Assembly (NCBI GenBank): GCA_902569115.1
Contig: CACFTI010000008.1
Coordinates: forward strand, 17,517-81,516
Source: an uncultured Verrucomicrobiota bacterium
GTDB taxonomy: Bacteria; Verrucomicrobiota; Verrucomicrobiia; Opitutales; Seribacteraceae
Reading direction: 5' to 3'
DNA length: 64,000 bases
The notes under the pieces are model-generated. The model searched no databases. It had not been told where the DNA came from and saw only the letters and a program-made list of their open reading frames with translations. Of this stretch, positions 43,735 to 55,277 are shown one piece after another. Each line of letters opens with the position of its first letter. Position 1 is the first letter of the stretch. Both the position numbers and the translations under genes were made by a program.

Positions 43735-44832
43735 CTAGGTCGTTGAAAGAGCTTCAATTGCTTCATCCAAACTACTTAAAACCTGCCATTCTTCACAACC
43801 ATCCAGATTATTCCACATTTCGGCATCATCCCCTTTAGCAATAATGGCACCTTGCATTGGCAGGCTAAGATCCTCAATTTTCTCGGCAAATTCGCCAACT
43901 ACTTCAATGGCTTCTTCTTCAATTTCGTCAAGGGAGGAGACATCAATAATCAACTTGCCGATACCTTCATTAATGGTGTTTTTAATCCGCTCGTCCATGT
44001 TATCTTTGATGTCTGTGATAACGAAGTTGGTGAGTTCACTTGGAACCTTGAATAGTAAGTAATCTTTCTCAAAAGAAAAATATCGAGCAGATGAATCAAG
44101 GTTCATCACCTTGTATAATGTGGCTTCGGTTTTTGTGGAATCAAAGGGTTTCTCTATGCATTCTGAGAATCCAGCATTGAGTGCTTTTTTAAGAGATGAT
44201 TCATCCCCTTTAACTATCATTCCAATTACCGGGGTGCTGACTACTTTATGCGTGGTTTTAAGCTTCCTTCGCAGGTCTATTGCCATGTCATTTGGTAAAG
44301 CCATGCTGATGAGTATCGCGTTGAAAGATGATTCATTGCAGGCTCGGAGGGCGGACATATCGTCAGCTGCACTTTTTACCACCCAATTACTCTTGGCACA
44401 AATATCTGAAATTTGAGTTATGATATTGGGCTTATCATCAACAACTAATATTTCAATCCCGTGTGAAGTTTCAACATGGGTTTCTTTGGTGGCAACCTCT
44501 TTAGATGCAATCCGGTTCATCCGATAAAGTCTTCGTCCAAGAGTTTTTATAAGTTTAACTGCGACCTTAGGATTCTTTGTTACGATGTCCGATATATTTT
44601 CCTCCACATGTCGAACTTTTGCCAATGTTTTGGCACGGATGTCCGCATCACGTTTCAAACCAAGAATTTCGCTAAGTTCACCAAAGATTGATCCTTTCGT
44701 ATCAATTTCACTCAAGACTTTTTCATCCCGAATGACTTCAAGGGTTCCCTCTTCTAGGATACAAAAGCCTTTGCCCAATTGTCCTGCATTTAGGACTGTT
44801 TCGCCGGGTTGATATTCTTGAAGCTTAATCAT
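43735..44832 (-). CDS. Cyclic-nucleotide-binding-like domain + degenerate receiver domain + STAS-like C-terminal domain
   Basis: CNMP fold (PGETVLNAGQLGKGFCILEEGTLEVI...GSIFGELSEI); IEILVVDDKPNI...ILISMALPND...ECIEKPFD; C-terminal IGKLIIDVSSLDEIEEEAIEVVGEF. Confidence 0.75.
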   Translation of the reverse strand: MIKLQEYQPGETVLNAGQLGKGFCILEEGTLEVIRDEKVLSEIDTKGSIFGELSEILGLKRDADIRAKTLAKVRHVEENISDIVTKNPKVAVKLIKTLGRRLYRMNRIASKEVATKETHVETSHGIEILVVDDKPNIITQISDICAKSNWVVKSAADDMSALRACNESSFNAILISMALPNDMAIDLRRKLKTTHKVVSTPVIGMIVKGDESSLKKALNAGFSECIEKPFDSTKTEATLYKVMNLDSSARYFSFEKDYLLFKVPSELTNFVITDIKDNMDERIKNTINEGIGKLIIDVSSLDEIEEEAIEVVGEFAEKIEDLSLPMQGAIIAKGDDAEMWNNLDGCEEWQVLSSLDEAIEALSTT

Positions 44833-44962
44833 AATAATGTGATTGGGATTGAAATATTTATTAGTAAGGGTTTTATTTCATTATTTCACTTTATTAAATT
44901 TCGCAAAACTTATTTTCGAGTCTTTATTTTGATTATTACTCCTGTTTTTTTGATTAAATATA

Positions 44963-46360
44963 ATGGGTGAGGTTTATTATGACTTTGTTGTCATCGGTGG
45001 AGGCAGTGCGGGATACGCTGCCGCAAGAACCTTCCACGACGATGGTTTCAAAGTCGCTGTAGTAGATGGTGGCAAGGAACTTTCAGGACTCTGTATTTTA
45101 CAGGGGTGCATGCCATCCAAAACCTTAATTTATTCGGCTGAAGTTTTTCACCTTGCCAGGCAGGGAAGTATTTTCGGATTTAAGAACTTTGACCCAAAGG
45201 CAGATATGGTCGGGATGCAAAAGAGGAAAAAGGAAATTATTGCTGAATTCGCCAACTATCGAAAAGGGCAATTAGAGGATGGTAGGTTTTCTCTTTTTCG
45301 ATCAAAAGCTAAATTTTTTGATAAAAATACCATCAAGCTTGATGATGGTTCTACTCTTAAGGCAGATAAAATCCTTATTTCGACTGGTTCCAAGATTAGT
45401 ATGCCTCCCGTGCCAGGTTTGAATCGTGTATCATTGAAAACGAGTGATGATGTCCTGGATCTTTCAGAAGTGCCGGAGGAGGTCATTGTTCTTGGTGGAG
45501 GAATTGTTGCTTGTGAGCTAGCTCAGTTTTTGAGCCGTGTGGGTGCTCGAGTGACGATACTTCAGCGAAGTGATCATATTTTGAAAGAATTTCCCCAAGT
45601 AGCCTCAACTTGTATTCATGAAAAATTTACTGAAGAGGGGATTACGGTGAAAACTGGAGTGTCAATTGAAAACTTAGATCAAGTCGATGAAGAAACTATC
45701 CGGGTTGATTATTTACATGATGGAGAAAAGAACTCCCAGAAGACCAAATTCCTGTTTCATGCCCTGGGTAGAAGTCCAGCGGTAGATAATCTTAACCTGG
45801 AAGGCATTGGGGTGGAGTTGGCGAAATCCGGTCATATTGAAACGAATCCGTTTCAACAAACATCCTTACCTCACATTTATGCAGCAGGAGATTGTGCCGG
45901 TCCCCACGAAATTGTACATGTTGCCATAAGGCAGGGTGAAACCGCAGCTATGCATGCTCTCGGACAAAAGCCCGAGCCGTTATGTTATGATCATTTGCTC
46001 GGGGTTGTGTTTACTGATCCACAGGTTGCCACGGTCGGATTATTACCTGAAGAATTGGATATAAGAGGAATTGAATATTTATCCGCCGATTATCCTTTTG
46101 ATGATCACGGTAAGTCGATTCTTATGGAAGCGAAGCATGGATATGTCGCCGTTCATGCGGACAAGACTACAGGGGTTGTTTTAGGTGCTGAATGTGTGGG
46201 AAAAGACGCGGGTGAACTTATTCATACCCTTTCCATTGCAGTTTCATTGAAAGCAACTGTTCATCAATTGGCAAAAGCTGACTGGTATCATCCGACACTT
46301 TCCGAAATCTGGACCTATCCTATTGAAGACTTGGCTGAGCTTATTTCCTCTACAGCCTAA
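44963..46360 (+). CDS. Dihydrolipoyl dehydrogenase-like pyridine nucleotide-disulfide oxidoreductase
   Basis: FAD motif VIGGGSAGYAAA, redox LCILQGCMPSK (CxxxxC), IVLGGGIVACELAQFLSRVG, AAGDCAG, HPTLSEIW. Confidence 0.93.
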   Translation: MGEVYYDFVVIGGGSAGYAAARTFHDDGFKVAVVDGGKELSGLCILQGCMPSKTLIYSAEVFHLARQGSIFGFKNFDPKADMVGMQKRKKEIIAEFANYRKGQLEDGRFSLFRSKAKFFDKNTIKLDDGSTLKADKILISTGSKISMPPVPGLNRVSLKTSDDVLDLSEVPEEVIVLGGGIVACELAQFLSRVGARVTILQRSDHILKEFPQVASTCIHEKFTEEGITVKTGVSIENLDQVDEETIRVDYLHDGEKNSQKTKFLFHALGRSPAVDNLNLEGIGVELAKSGHIETNPFQQTSLPHIYAAGDCAGPHEIVHVAIRQGETAAMHALGQKPEPLCYDHLLGVVFTDPQVATVGLLPEELDIRGIEYLSADYPFDDHGKSILMEAKHGYVAVHADKTTGVVLGAECVGKDAGELIHTLSIAVSLKATVHQLAKADWYHPTLSEIWTYPIEDLAELISSTA

Positions 46361-48447
46361 AAGAAATAGAAAAGCATGAAGATGGCACTTCCTGCCAGTC
46401 CACCTGCCCAAAAGCGATCCTCTCGGTAAACAGAGATACCCGCTTGTTTTGCTTTTCGTGAAGCGGATACATAAAAGCAACCAAATGTCCACACGGCTCC
46501 AATGAAGGCAGCATTGGCAGGGGAGATTGTCCCCATTACCACCAGGGTTGCCAGAGTAGCGTAGACTGCCACGCAGAAAAGAAGCGTCTTAACAAATACT
46601 GATAACTCCTGAGGGCTGAATATTTGAAGGCCGGTCCAGGTAAGTTTTCCTTTTTCTTGATCGGGCTGGGTTTTAAGGCTGACCAAAATGTGAACCAATA
46701 TGCTTAGAATCGCAGATAAAAATGCACCGTGCATGAAATTTAACTTTTCCCCAAACAGATCTATCAGGGGTTGGTTTTCTTCGGCTAAGTTTCCATAAAG
46801 TAAGGGAATCGAGTAACTGAAAACAACTCCAGCAATAATCGCGGCTACTCCTCCGGCAGCGGTTGCCCGTTTCCAGCACATACCCAAAAAGAAGGCGACC
46901 ACCACTCCTGCAATTAAATTGCTCTGATGCTTCGCTACATGGAGAAAAAAGCTATCCTTTGAATTTGGATCCATCGTGTAAATCGTAATGAAGCCAGCGA
47001 GTACAATAAAGGTAATGATCCAGATTCTTCCTATTGAAATGAGCTTTCGATCATCTGCATCGGAGTTGACATATTTTTTGTACAAATCGAAAGTCATGAT
47101 GGTAGCTGCCGAATTCATCATCGAATCAAGACTTGAAAGAATAGCCCCAATCATTCCTGCCGCAATAAGACCCACCAGTCCAAATCCAATGGGGGCAATT
47201 AATTCGGTAAGTAACTTAATAAAAACTGCATCCTGGGCCACCTCCAGATTTCGGTCCTTAAAAAGGTAGAAGGCTGCGATTCCTGTACCTATAGAAAAGA
47301 AAGGAATGAGTAGCTTAAAGAAACCAGCTGCGATAATCCCCATCTTTGCTTCCTTATCAGATACAGCGGATAGGGCTCGTTGTACAATGAACTGGTTAGT
47401 TCCCCAATAGTAAAAATGAAGGATCATCAGACCGCTCAGTACTCCCGTCCATGGCAGGTCGGGGTGATTGGAAGAATTATAGAGGTGAAATCGCTCAACA
47501 CCCTCGGAGCCCAAGTCCCTCGCCATGAGGTTGGCCCAGCCGCCGACTTCAGGTTGGGAAAAGGTGATGAAGGCGACCAAGAGTCCCGCAAGCAAAAGTA
47601 GCACTGATTGTATGACATCGGTTATTATTACCGCCTTCAGTCCTCCGAGGATAACATAAGTGCCTGTGACTAGTGCCATAATCAGGATGCCTAATTTATA
47701 TTTGAAGGGATCCACATCTCCGGGAGAAATTTCGGGATTTTCAATGTTTCCGCCGGCAAAACTTATCGATACGGGAGAATCGAATGTAGAATCTTGAGCG
47801 GTTGAATTAATAATTATTTTATTCACTTTACCTGCTAAGAGACTTGCATCCAGGAAATCAGTTTCTTTGTTATTAATAAGAACCTTTGGAGCACTTCCGT
47901 AACTTTCTCCACCATGAAGAATATTTATTTCGGTTAGTTTGCCATCATTGCTCACGACTGCCTCGGCCACTGCCTTTCTGCCGGTGTCTCCCTGAAGCAA
48001 AATATTAATTGAACGTGATCCAATATAGAAGCCTGGTACCATTTGAATAACCACCATAATGATGACCATGATCAGTGCATAACTTACCCGGCTCCGATCA
48101 TCATAACGCTTACTCAAATAATCGCTCAATGTGTAGACATTGAGCTTTCTGTAGACGGGAAGGAAGAAATAGCAAAGCATTAATAGACCCGCAATTGCCG
48201 TGATTTCGAAGTGGCTTTGAGCAAAACCGACTGCAAACCCAACTCCCATCATCCCAACAATATGATTTGCGGATACATTGGATCCGAAGATCGAGCCAGC
48301 AACTCCCCACCAACGCGTGCTACGGCCCGCAAGGAAATAGTCCTCGGAACTATCCTCCTTTCTTCCTACCCAAAGTCCCATGCCCATTACGGCAAGTAAG
48401 GAACCGAAGAAAATAATCAAGTCAGTGGTGGAGAGCAAAGAGTTCAT
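46357..48447 (-). CDS. Sodium:solute symporter (SSS) family transporter with inserted extracytoplasmic segment (start likely Met32 of the ORF-track entry)
   Basis: LWVGRKEDSSEDYFLAGRSTRWWGVAGSIFGSNVSANHIVGM, YTLSDYLSKRYDDRSR, GLKAVIITDVIQ, multiple TM segments; ~95-aa soluble insert. Confidence 0.92.
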   Translation of the reverse strand: MNSLLSTTDLIIFFGSLLAVMGMGLWVGRKEDSSEDYFLAGRSTRWWGVAGSIFGSNVSANHIVGMMGVGFAVGFAQSHFEITAIAGLLMLCYFFLPVYRKLNVYTLSDYLSKRYDDRSRVSYALIMVIIMVVIQMVPGFYIGSRSINILLQGDTGRKAVAEAVVSNDGKLTEINILHGGESYGSAPKVLINNKETDFLDASLLAGKVNKIIINSTAQDSTFDSPVSISFAGGNIENPEISPGDVDPFKYKLGILIMALVTGTYVILGGLKAVIITDVIQSVLLLLAGLLVAFITFSQPEVGGWANLMARDLGSEGVERFHLYNSSNHPDLPWTGVLSGLMILHFYYWGTNQFIVQRALSAVSDKEAKMGIIAAGFFKLLIPFFSIGTGIAAFYLFKDRNLEVAQDAVFIKLLTELIAPIGFGLVGLIAAGMIGAILSSLDSMMNSAATIMTFDLYKKYVNSDADDRKLISIGRIWIITFIVLAGFITIYTMDPNSKDSFFLHVAKHQSNLIAGVVVAFFLGMCWKRATAAGGVAAIIAGVVFSYSIPLLYGNLAEENQPLIDLFGEKLNFMHGAFLSAILSILVHILVSLKTQPDQEKGKLTWTGLQIFSPQELSVFVKTLLFCVAVYATLATLVVMGTISPANAAFIGAVWTFGCFYVSASRKAKQAGISVYREDRFWAGGLAGSAIFMLFYFF

Positions 48448-48542
48448 AATCAAAAGGTAGAGACCGATTTCAAATGAGTAAACCGCTAACTCGCCAAGAG
48501 GTTCAGTTCGACAATTGACCCTGGAGTAAGTAAACCTCATTC

Positions 48543-49532
48543 ATGTCACAATTTCTTCAATCATCGTTGGTCATTTTCGCCGTTTCCTTCCTTTATTGGT
48601 TACTATGCAGTTGTGTTGGTGAGCAGGATTCCCAAATAATCGAAGATAATTCTTCGTCGCCCAAGTTCACCGAAAGGGCAGACGAAGTAAATGCTTCGAC
48701 GGGGAATTCTAATCATTCGGCCGTTGCTTCAACTGAAACTCCCGTCCCAGAGGACAGTAATGCTGGAAAAGAACTTGGCTCTTCCAGTATTGATAGAATC
48801 CAAAACATTCTCGGGCGGGCTAATCCCGATTACCAAGGCCAAGGGAAATTTCATGAAGATAGTGGAGTGATCGTGGCTGCAGAGTTACCTAATTGTGGGC
48901 TTCGTGACCTTTCGCCATTGAAGGGATTACCATTGCAAGGTTTGGACTTGAGCGGTAACCCCGTGCGGGAACTCCGCCATCTTAAAGGCATGCCCCTCAG
49001 GACTCTTTTTATTGAAAATACCAGAGTTGAAACCCTACGGGACCTCGATGAGGCAAAGCTCATGGAATTGAGGCTTAATAATTCCCCCATCCAATCCCTT
49101 AAAGGTCTGGAGGGGCAACCTTTGGAAAACTTATATGCAGTTCGCACCAGAATTACCGAGGTTTCTCCAATTCGTTCCTCCAATTTGAAACAACTCTGGT
49201 TATCTGAGTCTCCGGTTTCGGATGTTTCGGGATTAGCTGGACTTCCTCTGGTCAGCCTGACCCTGCATCGTACTTTAGTGGAAGATGTTACTTTTGTTCG
49301 TCAACTACCCGTTCTCCAGCGTTTGCATATCGGTGAAACTTTGATCGAAGACTTGAGCCCGTTGGCCGGGGTCAATCTTACCCGATTGGTTTTTACACCT
49401 TCCCGCATAAAGCGGGGCATGAATGTTGTTCGCAGTCTTTACGGCTTACGGGAAATTGGAACCATATTTGACGATAGCGGGAGGGATTTAACATCTCCTG
49501 AGCAATTTTGGAGAGGAAATCTTTCGAAATGA
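48543..49532 (+). CDS. Leucine-rich-repeat lipoprotein
   Basis: Lipobox-like WLLCSC; consecutive ~21-22-aa repeats (LSPLKGLPLQGLDLSGNPVREL; LRHLKGMPLRTLFIENTRVETL; LKGLEGQPLENLYAVRTRITEV). Confidence 0.85.
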   Translation: MSQFLQSSLVIFAVSFLYWLLCSCVGEQDSQIIEDNSSSPKFTERADEVNASTGNSNHSAVASTETPVPEDSNAGKELGSSSIDRIQNILGRANPDYQGQGKFHEDSGVIVAAELPNCGLRDLSPLKGLPLQGLDLSGNPVRELRHLKGMPLRTLFIENTRVETLRDLDEAKLMELRLNNSPIQSLKGLEGQPLENLYAVRTRITEVSPIRSSNLKQLWLSESPVSDVSGLAGLPLVSLTLHRTLVEDVTFVRQLPVLQRLHIGETLIEDLSPLAGVNLTRLVFTPSRIKRGMNVVRSLYGLREIGTIFDDSGRDLTSPEQFWRGNLSK

Positions 49533-49536
49533 CATA

Positions 49537-52500
49537 CTATTTGATCAACTCATCGAGAATCCTCTCTGTCGAGCTATCATTCAAAGATCTGGTTTTATAA
49601 ATCTTTTTCGTTACCTTAGATACGATTTTAGTAAATTCCGGATAAGCCTTGCCCGTTACATCAATGAATCCACATTGATGATTCTCACGGTCTTTCCGAC
49701 CGCTTGCTGATTGATCTATCCATTGAAACCAATGAACTCCAACGAATCGGGGTTCTGCAAGAGCCGAGGCTAAGTAGTGTGCAAAAGAAAATCCTCGCTG
49801 GCGCTGATCCCAAGATCCAGAAAGACCGGGGCTGGGTACACCTCGATCAACGGCTCCAAAATGAAATTCTCCCGCAAGGATTGGGATATCTGCATCGGCT
49901 GGAACTTGCCATGATCTTACCCTTGAATCATACACATTAACTGAAAAAACATCCACATAGCCAATCGCCCCCCGACCCAGAATGCTTGGCCCACGATGAG
50001 TTCTACATCCGAGAAATAATGTATTTGGCAGTTCCTTGTTAATTGCAGCCTTACATTTTTGGAAAAAAGTCTGCACAAATGGAAGATAAAGCTGATCCAG
50101 CTCCTGCACTGAAGGAGTATCGCTATCTATGTCAAGTTGCTTGAGTTCTTTCATTGCCCATTGTTTTGTTGGATGCTCGCTTGGAAGATCCATGATTTTT
50201 TGACCGATCCGATCAGGCCACTCCAATTCGTTTCCCAAAAAAATACCAAGGCAATAGGGATCATTTTTTGCCCAAGACAACTTTTTTAAATTTTCTTCGA
50301 TATCTGACTGGAAATTCTCCCTGAATGGCGAGGGGAATTTTCGGTGCCCGCTTGCTTGCCACCAGATGGAAGAAATTAAAACATAGGGAGTTTTTCGATC
50401 TCGCTGTAATGATTGGTCAGACCAGCATCCAAGAGTGTTCACTCCCCACGATCTCATTCGGTCATGAATTCCCTTTCGCACTGTATCCTGCCAATTTTCT
50501 CCAAAAAACCTTCTGAAATTAAGACTGGGGTAATTTACAAATTTTTGACCGCCAATTTTTTGGATTCCAGTCCACCGTAAATAATCATCTTCTCCCGGTA
50601 AATAAGAGAAGAAGTTACCATTTGCCCGTTCTGGACCAGCGTAGGTCTCAGACTTCCATCCTGTCATACAGGTACCTATCGAAAAAAATAGATAGCCTTC
50701 TGGGTCAATTAACCACCATTTCCCGTCTACTTTTTTCGTTCTGAATCTCCCGGTAGCTTCCATTTGGGGACCATCAATCCATCCACCAAACTTGCCCATT
50801 CTCACTTTACTTGCTGAATTTGAAGCTTCCACATTTTCTCTGTGTACGACTTTACGAGCACTCGTTGAGTTCCTTGCCTTCCCTGGCCAGTTTAACGCAC
50901 GTACTTGACCCAATTCATCTAAATAGGGAAGGTCGTGTAATTTACGGTCAATCAACTCATCCTGCTGCCAAGCTAAAAAGGGTGAGTGGAGTAGAAGGTC
51001 GATTTTTCCACTGGAGGAACGAAATTCAAGGGTGATTTCCCTTAAGTCTTCGGGATAAAATTTCCTCCAGTGCAATCTATGACCATTGGGCTTGCCTAAT
51101 TGGTTTCTGAAGATTTGAGGACCTTTATAGGCATTCTCAATTGTTGGAAAAGGAAACCCTACTACTACTTTTTCCCACAGGGGGGCTACTCCGAAGCCAA
51201 CTGCATGATGGGACCAACTGGTCAAGTTTTCATTATTCAATCTTCCTTCAATAGTCGTAACACCATTTTCCCAGTTTTGAAGGGGGACTCCAACCAGCTT
51301 GAAATTACTGATATTCCATTTTATTGAAGCCTTTGGTAGCAGTGAAATTTTTACAGGGCTCTTTCCTGAGACTTTCCATTTCTGATTCCAATCCTGAATC
51401 TTAACTCCGGATGTTGATTTTATTTCACAGAGCAGGTTTGCCCGTGCAGCAAATAGTTCTTTCTGATGAATCTGGTTTGGAGTGCTGTTTTTTGAATCGT
51501 TGCCTGCAACATAAGGTTTTGTACTTCTCTTTGATTCAAAGATGTTTTTGATGCTTTGATGCATTCTTTTGACCCGGTCTTGTTGTTCCCTTTCGTCGAT
51601 CCTGTTGTTTTGTTCCAATAAGTCAGTGGCTAGATTGTATAATTCAAGGGGGGCTAAATCTTTATTGGTAATTAATTTCCAACTATTCTCTCTAATCATT
51701 TTCTTAGACATTTGACCAAAAGTGTTGCTGTTGTTGGCTTGAGCCAAAAGTGTATCTCTTAAAGAAGTGTTTTGATCACTGATCAATATCTTAAAAAATG
51801 ATTGGCTATCGAGACCGTCACCCGTGTCCATTGATTGGTTAGTAAGCTCGGCAAAGGTGGCAAAAAAGTCCTGCAACCCTATTAAAGCACTGTTTCGGGA
51901 ACCATTTCTTATTGGAGAGTTTTTATTCCCGTATCCCCAACTAATTATCAGAGGTACCCTGTGACCACCCTCATAGATCTGAGCCTTACTGCCACGAAGC
52001 CCTTCATTTGAATTATGCCCTGCTCGTGATTTTCCGATTGGTCCACGGGAAAGGCCCCCGTTATCACTGGTGAAAATTATCAGGGTATTTTCCAATTCAC
52101 CATTCGCTTTGAGAGCTTCCATTATTTTCCCTAGGCTTATATCAGCCTCCACCAACATATCCAGATGAGCGTCGAGCGATGCACCTTTTACTTTTTCCCC
52201 CATCAGTTCATCAGGGGGGGTATGAGGAACATGACAAGACTGGCTCCAATAATACATGAAGAATGGTTTTCGTATTCCCCTTTCTTCATTATTTTCAGAA
52301 TGTCTTTTCAGAAAAGATAATGCTTTTTGGGTTAAAACCGGACCCGCCATCGACGAATCCCAATCGGGTGAACCAAAACCATCTGCCTCAATAACTGAAT
52401 CACCGTAAGAACCAGTTTTCCACTCCCTAAGCTTTGTGGGATCACCAACAAGTATTCCATTTTCAATTGCGATATAAGGAGAGCCCTGAATTCCTTGAGG

Positions 52501-53034
52501 GAGTTCATAGGCATAGTCAAAGCCAAGGGATGCAGGTGTGTTCTCAACTTTGCGTCCAAAATCAAAGTCTTTAAAGCCACCCTTCATACTAAGTTTGGGT
52601 TTACCCGTTGATTTACTGAATACTTTTCCTCCCAAATGAACCTTTCCGAGAAAGGCAGTGTGATAACCTACTTTTTTCATTAACTGACCAACAGTTTGTT
52701 GTCCGCTCAAAACCTGAGATGGCATATTAAATAACCAGGTGCCGTTCGGATTTCTCCCACGCCATGGATAGTTTCCTGTCATAACACTGTAACGCGTGGG
52801 AGCACATACGGCGGCCGGTGCATGGGCATCGGTGAAAGTCATCCCTGCTGCAGCTAATTTTTCCAAATTGGGCATCGATACCTTGCTGTTCTTATTGTAA
52901 ACCCGTGAATCTCCAATTCCCATATCGTCCATCAGGAAAACAAGAATGTTGGGGGGAGCCATTATTTGTCCTAGTGCAAAAGAACAGAGAACAGGAAGTA
53001 AGCTTAATGTTAGACAGGCTGTGCTATGATACAT
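49537..53034 (-). CDS. Secreted sulfatase fused to GH50 agarase-like glycoside hydrolase
   Basis: Sulfatase NILVFLMDDMGIGD and VCAPTRYSVMTG (CxPxR); C-terminal half FLGNELEW and ILAGEFHFGAVDRGVPSPGL...SALAEPRFVGVHWFQWIDQSASGRKDRENHQCGFIDVTGKAYPE, GH50-like. Confidence 0.85.
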   Translation of the reverse strand: MYHSTACLTLSLLPVLCSFALGQIMAPPNILVFLMDDMGIGDSRVYNKNSKVSMPNLEKLAAAGMTFTDAHAPAAVCAPTRYSVMTGNYPWRGRNPNGTWLFNMPSQVLSGQQTVGQLMKKVGYHTAFLGKVHLGGKVFSKSTGKPKLSMKGGFKDFDFGRKVENTPASLGFDYAYELPQGIQGSPYIAIENGILVGDPTKLREWKTGSYGDSVIEADGFGSPDWDSSMAGPVLTQKALSFLKRHSENNEERGIRKPFFMYYWSQSCHVPHTPPDELMGEKVKGASLDAHLDMLVEADISLGKIMEALKANGELENTLIIFTSDNGGLSRGPIGKSRAGHNSNEGLRGSKAQIYEGGHRVPLIISWGYGNKNSPIRNGSRNSALIGLQDFFATFAELTNQSMDTGDGLDSQSFFKILISDQNTSLRDTLLAQANNSNTFGQMSKKMIRENSWKLITNKDLAPLELYNLATDLLEQNNRIDEREQQDRVKRMHQSIKNIFESKRSTKPYVAGNDSKNSTPNQIHQKELFAARANLLCEIKSTSGVKIQDWNQKWKVSGKSPVKISLLPKASIKWNISNFKLVGVPLQNWENGVTTIEGRLNNENLTSWSHHAVGFGVAPLWEKVVVGFPFPTIENAYKGPQIFRNQLGKPNGHRLHWRKFYPEDLREITLEFRSSSGKIDLLLHSPFLAWQQDELIDRKLHDLPYLDELGQVRALNWPGKARNSTSARKVVHRENVEASNSASKVRMGKFGGWIDGPQMEATGRFRTKKVDGKWWLIDPEGYLFFSIGTCMTGWKSETYAGPERANGNFFSYLPGEDDYLRWTGIQKIGGQKFVNYPSLNFRRFFGENWQDTVRKGIHDRMRSWGVNTLGCWSDQSLQRDRKTPYVLISSIWWQASGHRKFPSPFRENFQSDIEENLKKLSWAKNDPYCLGIFLGNELEWPDRIGQKIMDLPSEHPTKQWAMKELKQLDIDSDTPSVQELDQLYLPFVQTFFQKCKAAINKELPNTLFLGCRTHRGPSILGRGAIGYVDVFSVNVYDSRVRSWQVPADADIPILAGEFHFGAVDRGVPSPGLSGSWDQRQRGFSFAHYLASALAEPRFVGVHWFQWIDQSASGRKDRENHQCGFIDVTGKAYPEFTKIVSKVTKKIYKTRSLNDSSTERILDELIK

Positions 53035-53435: not shown

Positions 53436-55277
53436 TTAATTATTTTGTTTTTTATGTGCATGAAATTCGGGCCAGGAGAGGATGCCGTCCTGATTAGTAT
53501 CTGCAGAAGGATTTTTGCGGAAATATGAATTTTTCCAATGTTCATTTTGTAGGACTTTTTTTTCCTCTTCGGACATTTTCCTATGAGCAGTGAGTTCGGC
53601 CCAGGTAAATTTTCCATCTCCGTTTGAATCAGCCGATGGGTTTTTCTTCAAATACTGTTCCTTCCAATACTCATTGCTCTTTGGTTTTTCTGGAATGCTT
53701 TTAGGGATGATGGAGAGAAGTTGTGCTCGAAATCCGGTCAATTTCTTCTCGAATTTTGTATTCTGAGCCAAGTTATTCCATTCGTGATCATCTTTGACCG
53801 TGTGGTATAACTCTTCTTTTCCATTCTCGTATCGAATATATCGCCAGTCCTTGAAACGGAGGGAATAATTTTGAAAAGCTGGATCATAATACTGAGCCCA
53901 TTTATAAAGAGCAGTAATTGCATAGTCAGGGCCATCCCATTTCCCTGTCTTGGGATTTTGAAGAAGAGGTTTAAGTGAAAAGCCATCAAGCGGACGGCCT
54001 TTATCATTTTTCATGGTGTTGGAGGGTAAACCGCAAAGATCAAGGAGGGTGGGGTAAAGATCTACGAGGGAAACGGGTTGATCACATTTCTTACCATTAC
54101 CTGAAAAATCTGGTGCACGGATGATGAGGGGTACCCGTGTGCTTTCCTGCCAAAGAGAATTTTTGTAAAGATAGTCTTTTTCACCATTTCCCCATCCATG
54201 ATCACTGGTGAAAATAACAATGGTATTTTTATCCAACCCGGTTTCCTTAAGTGCCTCGAGAATATCACCCATTAAATCATCGACCGATGCGACAGATGCC
54301 AAGTAAGCCTGAATAAATTTCTTCAGGGCCAACTTGCGGTTTCCCCCATAGGATGCAACGAGGCTATCGTACATTTTCGTTCCCCGGTCCCCGCTCCGGT
54401 CATCTTCCTTTGAAGTTACGGTGTGCTTAAAGGTATCATCCGCGTCTGCTTTTAAAATTTTCGGCAGTTCTATTGATTCAAGGGGGAATAGATCGAAGTA
54501 TTTTTGCGGTACGATTAGCGGAGTGTGTGGACGCACAAAACCCACACCCATAAAAAATGGTTTTTGCTTTTTGGATTGAGCAAGCTCTCTGAGTCTTTTT
54601 ACCGCCCATTGTGCATTGAGTTCATCACCAGTTGGATCACGGTCATCATCCGAATTATATTTCATTGCCCTTTGCTTACGCCAGCTCCCAGTAATCCAGC
54701 TATAGTTTTTTCCGGTATTGGATGATTTTTTATCTGTAACATTTTCCAGTGGTCCAAAATTTCCGTCGATGATTCCGAAGTCATCTCTGAATGGAGCTGG
54801 TACGCTCAAGTTGGGGATCCTCTCCTTTCCATCATAAAGGAATGGACCGTAATCTGACGGATGCCCCAATTCTTTCCATTCCTGTTGATCCCGGTTATGC
54901 ATAACTTTACCCGTTCCCAAGGTGTGGTATCCATTTTCTCCAAAATGATCCATCATGGTTCGTGAATTTTTGAGAATTTCATTCTTATCCCAATCCTCAA
55001 AACCAAACTGTTGAGAGGTATGGGGATAAATGCCTGTGGCAAAGCTTGCCCGGGAAGGGTTGCAGATTGGAATATTGCAATGTGCCTGAGTGAAGGATAC
55101 GCCACTCTCAACTAACTTTCGGATATGAGGCGTCTTGGTTTGGGGATGACCACCAAGAGTTTCCACATAATCATTCAGATCATCACATACGATTAACAAA
55201 ACATTGGGCTTATCTGAGGAAAAGCACAGTAAACTGAACCCACAAAAGAAAAGACAGATGAGTTTCAAAAATGACAT
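53436..55277 (-). CDS. Secreted sulfatase (iduronate-2-sulfatase-like) with two C-terminal EF-hand-like repeats
   Basis: NVLLIVCDDLNDYVETLGGHPQTKTPHI, CNIPICNPSRASFATG (CxPSR), SDHGWGNGEK; duplicated NPSADSNGDGKFTWAEL / NPSADTNQDGILSWPEF. Confidence 0.93.
   Translation of the reverse strand: MSFLKLICLFFCGFSLLCFSSDKPNVLLIVCDDLNDYVETLGGHPQTKTPHIRKLVESGVSFTQAHCNIPICNPSRASFATGIYPHTSQQFGFEDWDKNEILKNSRTMMDHFGENGYHTLGTGKVMHNRDQQEWKELGHPSDYGPFLYDGKERIPNLSVPAPFRDDFGIIDGNFGPLENVTDKKSSNTGKNYSWITGSWRKQRAMKYNSDDDRDPTGDELNAQWAVKRLRELAQSKKQKPFFMGVGFVRPHTPLIVPQKYFDLFPLESIELPKILKADADDTFKHTVTSKEDDRSGDRGTKMYDSLVASYGGNRKLALKKFIQAYLASVASVDDLMGDILEALKETGLDKNTIVIFTSDHGWGNGEKDYLYKNSLWQESTRVPLIIRAPDFSGNGKKCDQPVSLVDLYPTLLDLCGLPSNTMKNDKGRPLDGFSLKPLLQNPKTGKWDGPDYAITALYKWAQYYDPAFQNYSLRFKDWRYIRYENGKEELYHTVKDDHEWNNLAQNTKFEKKLTGFRAQLLSIIPKSIPEKPKSNEYWKEQYLKKNPSADSNGDGKFTWAELTAHRKMSEEEKKVLQNEHWKNSYFRKNPSADTNQDGILSWPEFHAHKKQNN

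Follow-up and report, generated by a model that had tools for sequence, protein, structure and literature searches.

Why would a sodium/solute symporter (SSS) carry a soluble beta-repeat segment between two of its transmembrane helices? The question is raised by a reverse-strand gene in the window, as we call the whole stretch of 64,000 nucleotides analysed here, which comes from an uncultured marine Verrucomicrobiota bacterium. Our overall reading, to which we give a probability of roughly 0.55, is that the gene codes for a sodium:sugar symporter of the SGLT type with a removable two-unit all-beta accessory in a periplasmic loop. The features on which this reading draws are collected in Table 1.

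Table 1. Coordinates in the window of the predicted symporter, its inserted domain and neighbouring genes
Feature	Coordinates	Strand	Remarks
Predicted SGLT-like sodium/solute symporter	46357..48447	(-)	696 aa from likely start MNSLLS
Inserted extracytoplasmic beta-repeat domain	47707..47994	(-)	residues 183-278, linkers included; gap relative to vSGLT/SGLT1
N-terminal linker QGDTGR	47977..47994	(-)	QGDTG or KGDTG in nearly all two-unit forms
Repeat unit 1	47869..47976	(-)	residues 189-224; held-out unit profile 23.7 bits at 190-220
Repeat unit 2	47749..47859	(-)	residues 228-264; degenerate in window species; three predicted strands
C-terminal linker NIENPEISPGDVDP, running into core TM4	47707..47748	(-)	conserved (S/A)PGD(V/I)(D/E)P
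Sulfatase fused to GH50 beta-agarase-like domain	49537..53034	(-)	Pfam Sulfatase E 1e-42
Second sulfatase	53436..55277	(-)	Pfam Sulfatase E 8e-47; syntenic in relatives

The symporter and its substrate

The ORF listing gives the symporter a frame of 727 codons (46357-48540, reverse strand). Translation probably starts at residue 32 (MNSLLS, 48447), since homologues begin there, the upstream frame contains stops in several relatives and a divergent gene begins at 48543. The start of the open frame at 48540 would stand 3 bases from that divergent start. Residue numbers below follow the open frame and run 31 ahead of the likely protein.

The translation passed the cutoffs of Pfam SSF PF00474 (E 1.4e-57, 195.8 bits, cutoff 22.8) and TIGR00813 (E 1.7e-77, 261.2 bits, cutoff 184), and scored under the NCBIfam equivalog cutoffs of PutP, PanF, ActP and PRK10484; its 262 bits against a cutoff of 401 show that it is not a PRK10484 equivalog. 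The best PDB sequence match is vSGLT (2xq2/3dh4, E 1.4e-63), and the AlphaFold2 model has the LeuT-like SSS fold, with Foldseek probabilities of 1.00 to SGLT1/2, vSGLT, SiaT and NIS and with human SGLT1/SGLT2 (SLC5A1/2) as the top matches. Using published definitions of the Na2 and sugar-site residues (PMC8037263, PMC4270436), we found the Na2 site kept (A466, S469 and S470 align to vSGLT A361, S364 and S365, with G86 and V89 at the backbone-carbonyl positions of A62 and I65). At the sugar site E112, Y378, W379 and K409 correspond to vSGLT E88, Y263, W264 and K294, while three positions differ (Q69 to H93, N260 to H375, Q428 to A536) and leave the substrate uncertain. The protein is an SGLT-like symporter, predicted to be sodium-driven and probably a sugar importer.

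The sulfatase/GH50-like fusion is the next-but-one gene from the symporter; its C-terminal half matches the beta-agarase 4bq2 (E 1.6e-52) and has no Pfam match. The fusion is in frame and is kept in six relatives. Other lineages have the symporter near Gfo/Idh/MocA, xylose-isomerase-like and sulfatase genes. The sulfatase/agarase-like neighbours suggest uptake of galactan sugars, and we tentatively name a galactan-type sugar as a candidate substrate, at somewhat less than even odds; the imported sugar would plausibly be galactose, or one closely related to it, set free from sulfated galactans.

Position and fold of the inserted domain

The segment singled out by the first-pass annotation corresponds exactly to residues 183-278 of the 727-codon frame. 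Its description as an insertion was borne out, in that the Pfam SSF, TIGR00813 and vSGLT/human SGLT1 alignments all break there: they stop at residue 182 and restart at 283-284. Query residue 182 pairs with vSGLT 158 and residue 284 with vSGLT 165, so that vSGLT has only about six residues in its place; the segment is therefore an insertion and no normal SSS loop. By alignment it falls in the loop that connects core TM3 with TM4 (LeuT numbering). The extracytoplasmic side, also proposed earlier, agrees with the helix count of the full-length model, with loop charges and with vSGLT: model residues 29-45 and 103-116 fall inside and the insertion outside, the ratio of K/R to D/E is higher in the assumed cytoplasmic loops, and the insertion has a surplus of acidic residues (7 K/R versus 14 D/E). 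The model, given a diderm verrucomicrobial host, puts the insertion in the periplasm. We consider it extremely improbable that the segment is an ordinary SSS loop, given the gaps in the Pfam, TIGR00813 and PDB matches, or a cytoplasmic segment, given the loop charge count and the vSGLT topology; both readings were rejected on these grounds.

The two repeat units read in the segment at first pass were recovered by different routes, unit 1 from the window sequence itself and unit 2 through sister genera and predicted strands. A held-out unit profile made from distant lineages alone (L093, L094, L108, L132, L133) scored 31.1 bits on the insertion; of 2000 shuffles the best reached 10.2. Within the window sequence this profile recognised unit 1 alone; unit 2 by itself was not detected, and in the window species it is without the GGxxY signature. 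The aligned unit 2 of four members of a sister-genus lineage (L050, L067, L068, L069) scored 16-23 bits each on its own, and as both units are detected in that lineage the two-unit reading is right by homology. Judged from these sequences, unit 2 is decaying in the window's lineage. An AlphaFold2 domain model built from 16 insertions gave a confident all-beta domain (pLDDT 87, pTM 0.75) of 3+3 strands, at 9-14, 20-27, 37-40, 48-53, 56-62 and 76-80 in insertion numbering, and in the full-length model beta segments lie between helices 117-152 and 247-297. We regard the presence of an inserted extracytoplasmic repeat domain as nearly certain.

Distribution, history and selection

A count of other SSS proteins with the insert found two units in at least 25 genomes and four in three Phycisphaerales. 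Within the window's genus 19 of 27 genomes carry the two-unit form; of the rest, a single genome has a symporter free of the insertion and seven gave no match. At least four genomes from two sister genera share the two-unit form, as do one Verrucomicrobiia and one Planctomycetota MAG (L093, L094). The three Phycisphaerales forms (L108, L132, L133) have four, and only even unit numbers were seen in insertion-bearers. A sister group (L095-L100, L104-L107, L109) has a loop of 23-26 residues and no insertion, and more distant planctomycetal forms gathered by BLAST extend roughly 20-50 residues beyond the shortest loop; over the subfamily, loop lengths are about 10, 23-26, 38-66, 96-102 and 181-190 residues. 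The shortest, in L102, is the insertion-free decapeptide QEEPGPVDPT, in which PGPVDP is apparently what is left of the linker SPGDVDP. Among 388 genomes sampled from the phylum the sole symporter match was the window's own, the other five repeat matches lying in ORFs of 1154-9178 aa, and the architecture is therefore rare outside the window's bacterial family. The sequences are for the most part from metagenome-assembled or single-cell genomes. That the planctomycetal copies stem from MAG contamination is disfavoured, with four-unit forms in three Phycisphaerales genomes. With this pattern of presence and absence, the insertion resembles a removable add-on to a common transporter.

A tree made on the symporter core, with the insertion left out, placed L102 as sister to the two-unit L093 with support of 100/100. 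As an insertion-free form is sister to an insertion-bearer, loss in L102 is likely on this tree. A single clade of all insertion-bearers without loss was rejected by the AU test (p-AU 8e-5), and a clade of insertion-bearers plus L102 was not (p 0.27); the simplest allowed history, which is not thereby proven, would be one gain and one loss. In the window's own genus, one genome (G005) has an insertion-free symporter of the sister group (L095) between the same flanking genes as the window symporter (48543+, 49537- and 53436- on one side; 44963+ and 43735- on the other), and forcing it into the genus clade was rejected (p 3e-39). Two further genomes (G003, G004) hold at the same site a two-unit symporter that belongs to the sister-genus lineage (p 1e-73). 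Comparison of window positions 43735-53034 with L095, L150 and L151 finds three symporter lineages at one syntenic site in one genus. From this synteny and the tree, the gene at the symporter site has been replaced in situ within the window's genus. Three lineages at one site, one of them insertion-free, make the domain seem dispensable for the job done there.

The insertion is under purifying selection yet diverging fast. Over 14 close pairs its dN/dS is mostly 0.08-0.33 versus 0.01-0.05 for the core, with values of 0.46 in two very close pairs that stem from few changes, and its dN exceeds the core value by a factor of about 2.5-12. The columns without variation are mainly Gly/Ala/Pro/Tyr and the linkers at both ends, and among them no conserved binding surface, in the form of an exposed aromatic/polar cluster, was evident. 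Every two-unit form has the motif (S/A)PGD(V/I)(D/E)P, as have two of the three four-unit forms, while the remaining one has SPGDVRP; the linkers are nearly invariant across two phyla. As conservation is confined to structural residues and linkers, the domain may serve structure alone or be a passenger. That it is a tolerated passenger, a widespread module in a length-variable loop that is kept since misfolding would be harmful or the loop is shielded, fits the wide range of loop lengths, the raised dN, the likely loss in L102 together with the swap at the native site, and the decay of unit 2. We think it rather unlikely all the same, as dN/dS is well below 1 in all pairs, the linkers barely vary between phyla and only even unit numbers occur.

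Kin of the repeat and possible roles of the domain

Searches with the insertion gave no Pfam match and, in NCBIfam, YPDG_rpt only (E 0.019, under cutoff); there was no convincing PDB match by sequence to a solved repeat, and the domain model found no PDB fold with a probability above 0.2. The kinship with secreted-protein repeats noted at first pass holds, since bacteria of the same family have the repeat in secreted-type and very long proteins, but the label "adhesin-like" describes one context only, as phage virion proteins and a flagellin share the repeat. PHROGs virion structural, baseplate and neck families were matched by the window insertion (E 1.7e-4) and by the four-unit insertion of L108 (E 5e-20), tblastn found the repeat in 285 phage records, nearly all of cyanophages, and Foldseek matches in BFVD with a probability of 1.00 included cyanophage structural proteins, the best E being only about 0.005. 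One bacterial relative (L117:2486-6100 in G028) encodes a 1205-aa flagellin with many GGxxY beta-repeats between Flagellin_N and Flagellin_C. Large proteins in two others (L115 and L120, in G016 and G006) have an HExxH metalloprotease-like motif with the same repeats nearby.

Homotypic docking, in which the domain would bind like repeats in secreted or cell-envelope proteins and tether the transporter to them, draws some weight from the repeats being common in long and secreted-type proteins of the same bacterial family. A domain of such size cannot span the periplasm, and a homotypic partner would have to be periplasmic. We consider this very unlikely, and disfavour it as a general rule: in three insertion-bearing genomes of other lineages (G279, G280, G281) no further copy of the repeat was found at E<=0.001.

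We instead propose that the removable two-unit all-beta domain, held in the periplasmic loop joining core helix 3 to helix 4, would act as a rigid accessory, beside the entrance and outside the transport cycle. It would stand apart from that cycle because the loop joins two scaffold helices and is not the TM7-TM8 gating loop: TM3, TM4, TM8 and TM9 form the scaffold (PMC8037263), external gating involves the core TM7-TM8 loop (PMC7918813), and an insertion placed between TM3 and TM4 would hence not be expected to take part in gating. That the predicted domain is an accessory, non-essential to transport, we consider likely. Its most likely use would be as a contact module touching a periplasmic glycan or a partner protein beside the transporter; a putative contact or capture role is possible, at odds clearly short of even, and the substrate-capture or docking function suggested at first pass is in that putative sense no more than weakly favoured.

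Built-in capture, in which the beta-repeats would bind a sugar or oligosaccharide and so enrich it locally at the mouth of the symporter, is unlikely in our view. The extracytoplasmic position beside the entrance, the purifying selection, the agarase/sulfatase neighbourhood and the conserved linkers all speak for it; they are set against the want of an evident conserved exposed aromatic/polar cluster, insertion-free relatives at the same site and in similar neighbourhoods, and the failure to match a carbohydrate-binding module either in Pfam or by fold in the PDB (probability >0.2). Still less probable is a symporter with its own putative periplasmic substrate- or polymer-binding repeat in a scaffold loop, the number of units (0, 2 or 4) setting how strongly it captures.

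Meaning and comparison with known systems

The SGLT-like symporter with a removable extracytoplasmic beta-repeat domain is real as an architecture and had no counterpart in the libraries searched. We found no paper on the repeat motif string or on domain insertions in SSS loops, and the large SSS/SLC5 family gains an architecture for which no curated model was found. The occurrence at one site in one genus of symporters with and without the insertion is a natural experiment, in which the effect of the domain on uptake can be tested. The searches turned up no solved structure for the beta-repeat, which is common in secreted proteins and in the virions of marine phages and also lodges in inner-membrane transporters.

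Among known systems, vSGLT, the Vibrio parahaemolyticus sodium/galactose symporter, resembles the window symporter in its Na2 serines and four sugar-site residues, but lacks a domain in the core TM3-TM4 loop and differs at the equivalents of Q69, N260 and Q428; in human SGLT1 the flanking helices are joined here by only about five residues. SSS-sensor kinase fusions (PMC7918813) likewise join an SSS protein to another domain, but there sensor-kinase domains are fused on and no extracytoplasmic loop is interrupted. Virion proteins of marine T4-like phages (PHROGs 701, 19630, 2885, 460 and others) share the GGxxY..aPxVxI repeats with the insertion; in the phages these repeats reside in virion structural proteins, whereas the two or four units described here lie inside a membrane transporter.
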